From a virus: a DNA stretch of 25,634 bases. The translations under genes were made by a program, and so were the position numbers. The notes under the pieces are model-generated. The model saw only the letters and a list, made by a program, of their open reading frames with translations. It was not told where the DNA came from and did no database searches. The stretch covers positions 1-25,634 of IMG/VR virus record IMGVR_UViG_3300047557_001287. One strand, written 5' to 3'. This document shows, piece by piece, positions 15,528 through 25,470 of this stretch; the first letter of the stretch is position 1; each line of letters begins with the position of its first letter.

Positions 15528-17620
15528 TCAACCTTCGCAAGACAGGCACTCACCGGCCCACTCAATCTTCTGCCGCACTTGAATACTGTTCAATGGCGTA
15601 TCACCACCTGTCCCAACACTCACCTTGCCAGCGGCTTTAGCACGACAATAGTATAGAGACTTCAGTCCCTTCTTCCAAGCAGCAATGTGAACATCTGCCA
15701 TTTCTTGCATTGTAATATCTTCAGGGACAAAGATATTGATGCTCTGGCTTTGACATACATATTGTTGGCGCAAGGAAGCAAGTTCAATAATCCACATCGG
15801 ATTAATCTCTCGTGCTGTCTTGAACACTTTCTTTGTATGATCATCCAGTTCAGCAATGTGCTGACAACTCCCTTCATTGGCAATAATACTATCCCAAACT
15901 TCTTTGGTGTTCAGTCCAATTTTATCCAACTCTTTCTCAAGATACTTGTTCTTGATAAGGAAGCTCCCTGCCCGTCCTTGGTTATTGAAAGCATTGCCAG
16001 CCCAAGGTTCAACGCTAGGTGAAGCACCAACGATGTCGGCAGATGAGGCATTTGGGGCAATTGCCAATAGATGGGCATTGCGGAAGCCACTGCCAGTACA
16101 GTCTGGAGCCTCACCACGAGTTACAGCAAGTTCCTTACTGGCTTCTTCTGCTTCACTCTTAATCTTGGAATACAAGATACTTGTGTGTTGTGCAGCACTA
16201 CCAAACCCGCCGCTTTCAAAAGGAATCATATTCTTTTGCAAGTAGCTGTGCCAACCAAGTGTCCCAATTCCAATACTACGTTCCATACTTGCCGAATATA
16301 CCGCCTTTGACAAGACAGGGGGTGCAAGACGGATGAAGTATTCCAGTACGTTATCAAGCAACCGTACAAGGTCTTTCACCAATCCACTGTCTTTCCATTC
16401 ATCGTACTTCTCAAGATTAAGAGAAGACAGGCAACAAACGGCTGTACGTTTGTCGGAAGTCATCAGTGTGATTTCGCTCTTTGTGTTCAGAAGAGATCGC
16501 TACTTCCCTTCCCGCTTTATTCAAGCTGCTGCATGTTCCCGTGCAGAACAGACTATATCTTAACTCTCGTCAGAGTTCTCCCCGTTTCGCTTCGCTTGAA
16601 GCTACGCCTTTCGGCTAGTCGTTACACACGCCCGGAATACAGTGTATTCCTGCTTGGTTCGGTATTGTCCGTTCTGGAGTTCCACCGAGTTAGAGGAGTT
16701 TTACTTGCGCTAGTATGTCAACACAAGTTGCTTTGTTCTACTTTGTACAACGGATTGGTAATCTGCTTCGGCTTGCAGCGATTACTTGTATCCACAAAAT
16801 GCAGATACGGCTCACCTGTTTCAAAACGCATTTCCAGCACCTCTTCAAACACCTTAGCAGCATTCAGCTTACGACCTGTAGGGCCATGCTTGGGGTCAAC
16901 AAGTTCGTAATCTTGCTCGTTGATAACCGCTTCCATAAAACTGTCAGGAAGGTTGACAGCGTTGTTCAAGTTAAAGCATTTCTTATTTGCGTCCCCACCT
17001 ACAGGGTTACGCATCTGAATGAATGACTGAATCTCGGGGTGCGTAATATCTGCATAAGCAGCAATACTTCCTCGTCGGCTTGCTGTCTGTCGGTAAGACA
17101 AGGTGTCAGCGTCATACCCACGGAGATGGGACATCACGCCTGTACTCTTTTCATCAGGTGAGCGGTTGGCGGCATATACACCCACTCCGCCCCCCATCAT
17201 TGACAACCAAGCTGTTTCAGTCCGTGCTTCAACAATCCCTTTCTTGTTGTCTGGAATCTTCACCAAGAAGCAAGAGATTGGCATTCCATCGGGTTCCACA
17301 TTCCTTTGAAGCCAACTAGCTGCATCAAGCCATTCATCTTCAGTGAACGTAGGCCATTCCACATCAACAGCGTTGCTCAAGACAGGGGATGCAAACGTAA
17401 ACCAGTGCTTGCTTGCTGCGTCATAAATACGTTGTGCAAACTCATAGTCCCCAAAGCAGTAGCAGGTCGCTGCCCGTGCAAAAGATTGTTGTGGAGAGTC
17501 TTCATTGTCTTTCTTGTAAAATCCCTTTGCTGTGAGCATTGCCAATCCTTTCTCTGGCAGCAGTTTGTCACGGCTATAGTCAATCACAATTCCATTATAA
17601 ACACTTACAGGTTGTTCCAT
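15528..17620 (-). CDS. nrdA: Class I ribonucleotide reductase, large subunit, intron-split
   Basis: NrdA is encoded by exon 1 (17620-16721, 300 codons) and exon 2 (16478-15528, 316 codons plus stop), giving 616 residues after splicing. Key residues are present: Cys117 (PISCFL) and Cys315 (AVCCLSS) as the redox pair, Asn298-Leu-Cys300-Ser-Glu302 as the active-site motif created at the exon junction, Tyr576-Tyr577 for radical transfer, and a C-terminal CLSC. There is no N-terminal ATP cone, so overall activity allostery is probably lacking. ATG 17620 overlaps the preceding stop by one base (TGATG); GTG 17623 is an alternative. It lies between an unknown gene and nrdB in a nucleotide-synthesis operon. 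Confidence 0.92.
16479..16720 (-). ncRNA. Group I self-splicing intron in nrdA, 242 nt, no ORF
   Basis: Exon 1 ends ACTTGTGT and pairs over 8 bp with GCGCAAGT (16710-16703) to form P1, with the expected U-G wobble at the splice site. Other core helices: P6 GGAATAC/GTATTCC (16650-16634), P7 GACTA (16620-16616) with TAGTC (16555-16551), a GCC-GAAA-GGC hairpin, GCTTC/GAAGC, P8 AACTCT/AGAGTT (16577-16562), and P9 CTGCA/TGCAG (16546-16529). The conserved AAGATATAGTC element is at 16561-16551. The intron ends in G at 16479. Splicing joins TGT to AGC and restores NLCSEI. It carries no endonuclease gene. Its first codon in the nrdA frame is TGA. Confidence 0.93.
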
Positions 17621-17985
17621 CACTCATCCCCGCCATGATTCTTTTCACCAGTATTCTTCTTAAACACTCGTTCACCAATCCCTTGCCGACTCATCTTAAT
17701 CAAGTCTGGTGCAATATCTGGCTTACTGGCATAAAGGGCTTCAATGCTTGCATGTCCTGATTGAATGTAAGCGCGGTCGGTACGTTCTCTCCCCATATAG
17801 TATTCACAAGTCACCACTTGGTTCTGCATGTTGCGATGAGTGATCACTTCAACTTCTACAGGGTGTCGTGTGTCTACACCAAGTTGAAACAACAACTCCT
17901 TAATCTTCTCATCTGTTCCATCAAAACCGGGGCAGCGGATTAAGTCGGAAATGCTGATGTTTTTATAGCTTACAAGTTGTGTCAT
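17620..17985 (-). CDS. Unknown protein between thyX and nrdA
   Basis: The 121-residue product is not recognised. It is soluble, with an N-terminal MTQLVSYKNISISDLIRCPG, a strand-rich middle (HPVEVEVITHRNMQNQVVTC), a YMGRERTDRAYIQSGHASIE segment, and a charged tail KKNTGEKNHGGDE. It overlaps ThyX by ATGA upstream and NrdA by one base downstream, so its translation is coupled to both. The position suggests an accessory role in dNTP synthesis. That is inference from operon structure only. Confidence 0.75.
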   Translation of the reverse strand: MTQLVSYKNISISDLIRCPGFDGTDEKIKELLFQLGVDTRHPVEVEVITHRNMQNQVVTCEYYMGRERTDRAYIQSGHASIEALYASKPDIAPDLIKMSRQGIGERVFKKNTGEKNHGGDE

Positions 17986-23206: not shown

Positions 23207-23806
23207 TTATCTTGGTGTATTCTTGGCATACGGAGGAAAGAAGTCCAATCCTTTATCGAAGTTATTCTTACCCATACAATAGAATCTATACCCTTTGTGA
23301 CTTTTTGAATCATCTTTTAAGCATCGACCAACGGCTCTTAAATCAAATCCAACTGTTGTAACGCACAACCTTGTCGGAAAATAGTAGCCAAATGAGGGGT
23401 CATCCACAGAAACTGCTTGCAAGTGCTTCGCACCGGGAAATTTGTGAACCCCTTTCTCTTTGTTTCTCGGGACAGAATGCCTAGAGTTTTCGCAAGGAGT
23501 AACCCATTCTAGGTTCTCAACTGAGTTGTCATTCCTTACGAAGTTTTTATGATTCACAAACGGTTTGTTTTCTGGGTTGGGTATAAACGCCTCCGCTACC
23601 AGCCTGTGAACTTTTTTCATACACTGATTACCCTCCTTACACAAGGTAATCATATTGTACCCAATATAGAGCGCACCTACCATTATTCGGGGAGTGGTTG
23701 AAAGACCAACACCGTTTCTTGAACGAAACGACCTCACCTTGCCCTTATTGCTCACTTGATATACCCCGCCATATCCTTCTATGTCTTTCCAAATCTCTTC
23801 GTTCAT
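23207..23806 (-). CDS. NUMOD4/HNH free-standing homing endonuclease
   Basis: The 199-residue protein opens with a NUMOD4 domain (EIWKDIEGYGGVYQVSNKGK, residues 4-23). An HNH_3-type nuclease follows at about 65-110: HRLVAEAFIPNP, then NHKNFVRNDNSVENLEWVTP with the catalytic His. The C-terminal ~80 residues resemble a NUMOD1-like DNA-recognition tail (LRAVGRCLKDDSKSHKGYRF). Such enzymes promote their own spread by cutting alleles that lack them. It overlaps the phosphoesterase gene by ATGA and has its own terminator, which fits an inserted cassette. Confidence 0.85.
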   Translation of the reverse strand: MNEEIWKDIEGYGGVYQVSNKGKVRSFRSRNGVGLSTTPRIMVGALYIGYNMITLCKEGNQCMKKVHRLVAEAFIPNPENKPFVNHKNFVRNDNSVENLEWVTPCENSRHSVPRNKEKGVHKFPGAKHLQAVSVDDPSFGYYFPTRLCVTTVGFDLRAVGRCLKDDSKSHKGYRFYCMGKNNFDKGLDFFPPYAKNTPR

Positions 23807-24660: not shown

Positions 24661-24875
24661 CCCTTCTCCATTTCATCATTCTTTCGGTAAACCTCTACAA
24701 CCACCTTCCCTTGCCCAGCCAGTGCATAATAGTACAGAGACAAGTTTGTAGGGAGGGGGTTGGAGAAGCCAGCAATGTTCAGGGCTTTATCGGTGAACAG
24801 TTTATCACCTAGTAACAACCCATATTTGTTACGGAACAGCTTATCATCAAATGTCTGTTTGAAGATCAGGTTCAT
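24657..24875 (-). CDS. Hypothetical protein, about 72 residues
   Basis: It starts MNLIFKQTFDDKLFRNKYGL and contains TDKALNIAGFSNPLPTNLSL and a strand GKVVVEVYRK. A GTG at 24884 is an alternative start, but its GGAG is too close, whereas ATG 24875 is ten bases away. It overlaps the HNH gene upstream and the phosphoesterase gene downstream. Not recognised. Confidence 0.6.
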   Translation of the reverse strand: MNLIFKQTFDDKLFRNKYGLLLGDKLFTDKALNIAGFSNPLPTNLSLYYYALAGQGKVVVEVYRKNDEMEKG

Positions 24876-25470
24876 TCTTATCACGCTCCGCTTTCAAGTA
24901 TTCACGATATGCGTCCCTGCGCTTTTCCTTGGTACTGTAATCTTCCGGGGCGACACTTGTGTCTAGCCCAATCTCCATAAACTTAGCAGATTGTTCAGCC
25001 GCTGGCAACTTACCAAAGGCAACACATTGCTTTTCGATAATAGCATCTTCCATTGACATTCCCATGCGTTCTGCGTACGATTTTTGCATATGGCACTTAT
25101 CGGCACAAAGAAGCTGCATATTATCCATCGGGGCAAGCAACCTATAAAGGAATACAGCAGCATCATCGTAGTTCTTGAAAGAACCCACAGGGGATACATG
25201 GTCAACTTGGAGGTTGTTTCCAGTAAACCAGTCCTTACAATAATTGCACTGTGCTACTTTCTTCACTCTTGGGTTGGTAATACCGCTCCCCTCAAAGTTT
25301 GGAATCATTTGCATAGCTTTGAACTTATTCTTCGTAGGGAAATCCTTCCAAATACGGCGGAATTGACCGCGCAGGTATTTCCAATACTCGGACTCTGTTC
25401 GCCACACTTCAGGCATTTCCAGCCACACTTTTACGGGATATTTCTTTTGGTATTCTTCTTTTTTAGTCAT
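24847..25470 (-). CDS. HNH endonuclease
   Basis: The 207-residue protein carries an HNH nuclease core in its middle (about 72-130): CNYCKDWF, LQVDHVSPVGSFKN, DNMQLLCADKCHMQKSYAER. It shows a CxxC...CxxxH-type zinc site with the catalytic His in VDH. The N-terminal ~70 residues are basic and aromatic (EYWKYLRGQFRRIWKDFP) and probably bind DNA. The charged C-terminal ~65 residues are helical. It could be a homing enzyme, a DNA-repair/recombination nuclease, or one used in host DNA degradation. The start ATG 25470 is next to the upstream stop (TGAATG). Confidence 0.75.
   Translation of the reverse strand: MTKKEEYQKKYPVKVWLEMPEVWRTESEYWKYLRGQFRRIWKDFPTKNKFKAMQMIPNFEGSGITNPRVKKVAQCNYCKDWFTGNNLQVDHVSPVGSFKNYDDAAVFLYRLLAPMDNMQLLCADKCHMQKSYAERMGMSMEDAIIEKQCVAFGKLPAAEQSAKFMEIGLDTSVAPEDYSTKEKRRDAYREYLKAERDKNEPDLQTDI

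Follow-up and report, generated by a model that had tools for sequence, protein, structure and literature searches.

Background

A class I ribonucleotide reductase gene that is broken in two at its catalytic cysteine raises a simple question: is the intervening DNA an element that removes itself from the message or the protein, or has the gene been lost? The case examined here comes from a 25,634-base IMG/VR virus fragment derived from a tailed phage (“the window”, meaning the whole stretch analyzed). Its plus strand carries tape measure, baseplate, and tail fibre genes, and its minus strand carries nrdB, nrdA, and thyX, as is also the case in the Rheinheimera Barba phages. The initial annotation of this DNA read positions 16479-16720 as a compact group I intron at the catalytic cysteine codon of nrdA. 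Our analysis leads to much the same answer: the 242-nt insert is almost certainly a self-splicing group IA (IA2-like) intron in class I nrdA, placed after the catalytic-cysteine codon, with splicing itself inferred from the sequence.

Results

Boundaries and reading frame

The insertion point lies between the catalytic-cysteine codon TGT and the next codon, AGC. The last codons of exon 1 are AAC TTG TGT (ending at 16721), and exon 2 opens with AGC GAA ATC (from 16478). If the RNA is read without splicing, the codon after TGT is TGA; stops occur in all frames of the insert, and 242 is not a multiple of three. A search for an endonuclease open reading frame within the intron found none, all frames being stopped, in agreement with the ORF-free 242 nt first described. 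Joining the exons in silico yields a complete NrdA of 617 stop-free codons with the motif QSNLC/SEITL restored, so that the TGT-AGC junction re-forms Asn-Leu-Cys-Ser-Glu as had been proposed. Both exons are full-length and retain the conserved residues, including the terminal CLSCEG; NrdA is thus apparently under selection as a single piece. In relatives without the insertion, the SNLCSE motif is unbroken at the very point of the window’s junction, and the nearest of them (locus L002), 80% identical over NrdA, has an empty site. Megablast of the window nrdA region against named phages gave no near match.

The terminal G and the frame restored on joining are both as expected for a group I intron. 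Because the Rfam alignment, which begins at 16812, is wrong for P1, we set the boundaries by P1, by the two features just named, and by the intronless relatives.

Also on the minus strand of the window are two free-standing HNH endonuclease genes (23207-23806 and 24847-25470), one of them NUMOD4/HNH_3. An intronless nrdA is a conceivable target for either one, but nothing ties them to nrdA.

RNA structure and subgroup

The intron has P1 and P3-P9 in canonical order (Table 1), with the P3-P8 core and P3/P7 pseudoknot characteristic of group I, and P1 comprises 8 bp with a U.G pair at the 5′ splice site. The elements pointed out in the initial annotation (this P1, P6, P7, P8, P9, and AAGATATAGTC) are thus all in place. 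P6 is short, and P10, between the guide region and exon 2, amounts to ~2 bp at most, judged by eye. Two hairpins between P7 and the 3′ strand of P3 are a mark of subgroup IA in the Michel-Westhof scheme. Since P7.1 and P7.2 occupy exactly this interval, we assign the intron to subgroup IA; calling it IA2-like, rather than IA1 or IA3, is a judgement from the same hairpins.

Table 1. Features of the interrupted nrdA gene and its intron (window coordinates; RNA letters for helices)
Feature	Positions	Strand	Details
nrdA exon 1	16721..17623	minus	301 codons, GTG start, C-terminal ...SNLC; all-alpha and barrel RNR domains (Pfam); alignments with relatives run through the junction
P1 5′ strand, exon 1	16721..16728	minus	ACUUGUGU; U.G at splice site
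Group I intron	16479..16720	minus	242 nt, no ORF, starts with in-frame stop UGA, terminal G; Rfam, leave-out covariance model, restored frame
P1 3′ strand / internal guide sequence	16703..16710	minus	GCGCAAGU
P3 5′ strand	16693..16698	minus	CUCCUC; partner 16583-16578; co-varies across seven same-site introns
P4-P5	16659..16688	minus	UCGGU/ACCGA, UCC/GGA
P6a hairpin	16634..16650	minus	GGAAUAC/GUAUUCC
P7 5′ strand	16616..16620	minus	GACUA
P7.1 and P7.2 hairpins	16589..16615	minus	MFE fold; subgroup IA hallmark
P3 3′ strand	16578..16583	minus	GGGGAG
P8	16563..16576	minus	ACUCU/AGAGU
J8/7 and P7 3′ strand	16551..16561	minus	AAGAUAUAGUC (listed also as AAGATATAGTC); Rfam alignment and coordinates
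P9	16529..16546	minus	CUGCA/UGCAG
P9.1 and P9.2 hairpins	16490..16526	minus	fold; L127 has an endonuclease gene at the P9.1 position
nrdA exon 2	15528..16478	minus	316 aa, SEITL... to terminal CLSCEG; Pfam RNR barrel domain

Covariance and statistical support

The covariance search with the Rfam group I model (RF00028), suggested together with the initial annotation, matched the intron at 54.2 bits (E 2.2e-11), only modestly above the cut-off of 50. A leave-out covariance model, for which eight other phage introns were used and the window excluded, scored it at 129.9 bits (E ~1e-30), about the score of the KIL1 phage terminase intron, and found no second site in the window. This places it among the best of 21 matches, which include the known Twort and SPbeta introns; the same model gave no match in the empty nrdA loci L002 and L003 or in the intein-bearing Barba locus L082. 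The intron also folds well compared with shuffled sequence (z = -3.46, 0/200 shuffles). The leave-out model also matched Pseudomonas phage KIL1 a second time: downstream of its terminase gene lies an unannotated sequence resembling a group I intron (115.5 bits; L205, 1847-2032).

Six further introns occupy the same bond (see below), and in all seven the helix strands follow in the order P1, P3, P4, P5, P4′, P7, P3′, P8, P7′, P9. Two-sided changes that keep pairing occur in most pairs of the seven for P3, P4, and P8, and in some for P5 and P9; P1 and P7 are too invariant for such a test. When 3′ strands are permuted among the introns they pair much worse (98% versus 75% for P3, 97% versus 56% for P8), for helix strands that were picked by hand, which favours pairing.

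Proposed splicing and alternative readings of the insert

In the pre-mRNA, exon 1 would pair through its final 8 nt with the internal guide sequence to give P1, and a guanosine bound at P7 would attack the bond that follows the U in this helix’s U.G pair. In the second step, the 3′ OH of the released exon would attack at the other end of the intron, just past its final G (16479); TGT would thereby be joined to AGC and an active NrdA restored. The in-frame UGA, as the first intron codon, should halt ribosomes on unspliced RNA, which would then yield only a 301-aa fragment lacking the active site’s second half.

Could the insert instead be a degenerate group I intron that has lost splicing and left nrdA broken, as a pseudogene or as two half proteins? 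Its compact size and lack of an endonuclease would be compatible with decay, but all core helices are intact, the covariance score ranks near the top of the 21 matches, and the full-length exons keep their conserved residues down to the terminal CLSCEG, which makes this reading very improbable. More improbable still, to the point of being scarcely credible, is an insertion at the protein level, such as the remnant of an intein, the kind of explanation proposed by Dwivedi et al. (2013) for the gap in the nrdA of Listeria phage A511. True inteins are indeed present one codon upstream in the Barba phages and SPbeta. The present insert, however, opens with a stop, is stopped in all frames, and has a length not divisible by three, so that the reading frame rules out its being an intein; moreover, it matches group I RNA models, as does the A511 gap.

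The same bond in other phages

Insertion sites of other introns were to be compared according to the initial annotation, and the comparison shows that the bond is occupied repeatedly. Group I introns interrupt the same exon bond in the nrdA of Listeria phage A511 (Herelleviridae; ~329 nt) and in at least five IMG/VR phages: L005 (299 nt), L124 (264 nt), L127 (763 nt), L170 (245 nt), and L217 (230 nt). The host genes can be distant, the NrdA of L127 and L170 being only ~22-39% identical to that of the window; the former is related to Pseudomonas siphoviruses and the latter to T5-like Vibrio phages. In the Pseudomonas phages nearest to L127 in NrdA exon 1, the gene is uninterrupted in both annotated records. 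The pattern TTGTGTT...GCNCAAGTAAA matched 102 stretches in IMG/VR; among the 80 of these listed, nearly all were chance matches, and the real intron loci were L124, L127, and L158, the last being the same contig as L005. A generalised pattern matched 103 stretches in 84,980 cellular genomes, with the nrdA site in none of those tested.

All seven same-site introns begin with an in-frame stop codon (TAA or TGA), although the unbiased count is five out of five, as L170 and L217 were found with patterns requiring a stop. Stops at intron starts are thought to aid splicing via ribosome stalling (review, PMC3984707). The L127 intron carries a 154-codon GIY-YIG endonuclease gene in its P9.1 region; at that position the window intron forms a short hairpin. 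The latter is therefore most readily seen as an endonuclease-free mini-intron, by probable loss or by never having had such a gene; most likely it has lost one, or it may spread with the help of one encoded elsewhere. Vibrio phage 1.161.O, which has a GIY-YIG gene in common with L127, was set aside as a further case: there the gene is located in a primase-like gene.

The A511 gap had been published as intein traces (Dwivedi et al. 2013, PMC3653736). Judging by its sequence, the gap between the nrdA halves (gp123/gp124; L197 3589-3917, DQ003638) is a group I intron and not an intein trace: it lies in the same gene and at the identical bond (SNLC/QEIAQN), opens with TAA in frame, and fits the leave-out model at 63.8 bits, while remaining below the Rfam cut-off. 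It differs from the window intron in its length as bounded here, its P2, and its short 4-bp P1, and by its core it belongs with introns of Staphylococcus and Bacillus phages, not with the window.

Other phage introns resemble the window intron in other respects. Introns 1 and 2 of Twort nrdE and the SPbeta bnrdE intron also lie in RNR large-subunit genes and fit the same covariance model. Their sites, mapped here from sequence, are different ones: Twort has an uninterrupted NLC, and the intron of SPbeta is close to the QRQGSG motif. The closest cores (63-72% identity) belong to DNA polymerase introns of T7-like and other phages (Klebsiella RCIP0099 and RCIP0053, Erwinia VL73), which share the window intron’s architecture but differ in host gene and guide sequence. 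As a separate observation, four successive group I introns with very short exons between them lie within ~1.2 kb of a Staphylococcus phage virion gene (L325, 188-1341).

Origin of the same-site introns

In a tree of intron cores (20 introns, 178 columns, with paired sites treated as independent), the seven same-site introns form no clade. Polymerase introns from Klebsiella and Erwinia phages form the sister group of the L127 core, which is 88% identical to a Klebsiella phage DNA polymerase intron; the L005 core groups with terminase and thyX introns. A single clade of all seven is rejected by the AU test (p 0.00035); a single clade of the four introns in window-like nrdA genes is rejected marginally (p 0.047). 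On these sequences the polyphyly would imply repeated invasion or core exchange, which would look alike.

A different history, bearing on the origin of the element and not on its identity, would have all introns at this bond belong to one homing lineage that entered once and co-evolved with nrdA through vertical descent and homing. The shared bond, the guide sequence GCRYAAGUAAAAC common to six of the seven, and the fact that one lineage per site is normal under site-specific homing speak for it. The guide sequence, however, is dictated by the exon, and neither the AU result for seven introns nor, only just, that for four accords with a single lineage; the same is true of the kinship between the L127 core and the Klebsiella polymerase intron. 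We regard a single lineage as unlikely.

Inteins one codon upstream

In the NrdA of the Rheinheimera Barba phages, an apparent LAGLIDADG intein lies between SNL and C (L082, 3889-4881; Pfam Intein_splicing below its own cut-off, LAGLIDADG_3 above), its last residue being Gln and not the usual Asn. The Barba genome paper lists the 951-aa RNR without comment and mentions no intein. SPbeta bnrdE has an annotated intein at the same SNL/C bond. Like the window intron as read here, these are self-splicing elements at the same cysteine; unlike it, they splice as protein and sit before the cysteine codon, 3 nt upstream of the intron bond. The initial annotation is supported in nearly every detail, and to it the relatives’ intein one codon upstream is new. 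The coincidence of introns and inteins was named by Derbyshire and Belfort (1998), as cited in PMC3653736; a partial literature search found no description of the nrdA cysteine as a place where introns and inteins alternate at bonds separated by 3 nt.

Discussion

The window intron is ordinary in kind; on its own it adds little, phage RNR genes being the classic home of such introns. The comparison is somewhat unusual. On balance, we lean toward the view that the bond after the nrdA cysteine is a convergent hot spot, which unrelated group IA introns, some without an endonuclease of their own, would have entered on several occasions, across four or more phage groups (Barba-like, T5-like, Pseudomonas-siphovirus-like, and Herelleviridae), with inteins 3 nt upstream. 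Since occupancy by one element would block the homing of the others, introns and inteins would compete for a single target. Related nrdA genes in empty, intron-bearing, and intein-bearing states within 3 nt of one another form a natural series, in which one may ask whether the choice of target follows from the specificity of the endonuclease, from how well this stretch of codons is conserved, or from reverse splicing, and whether introns and inteins are mutually exclusive.
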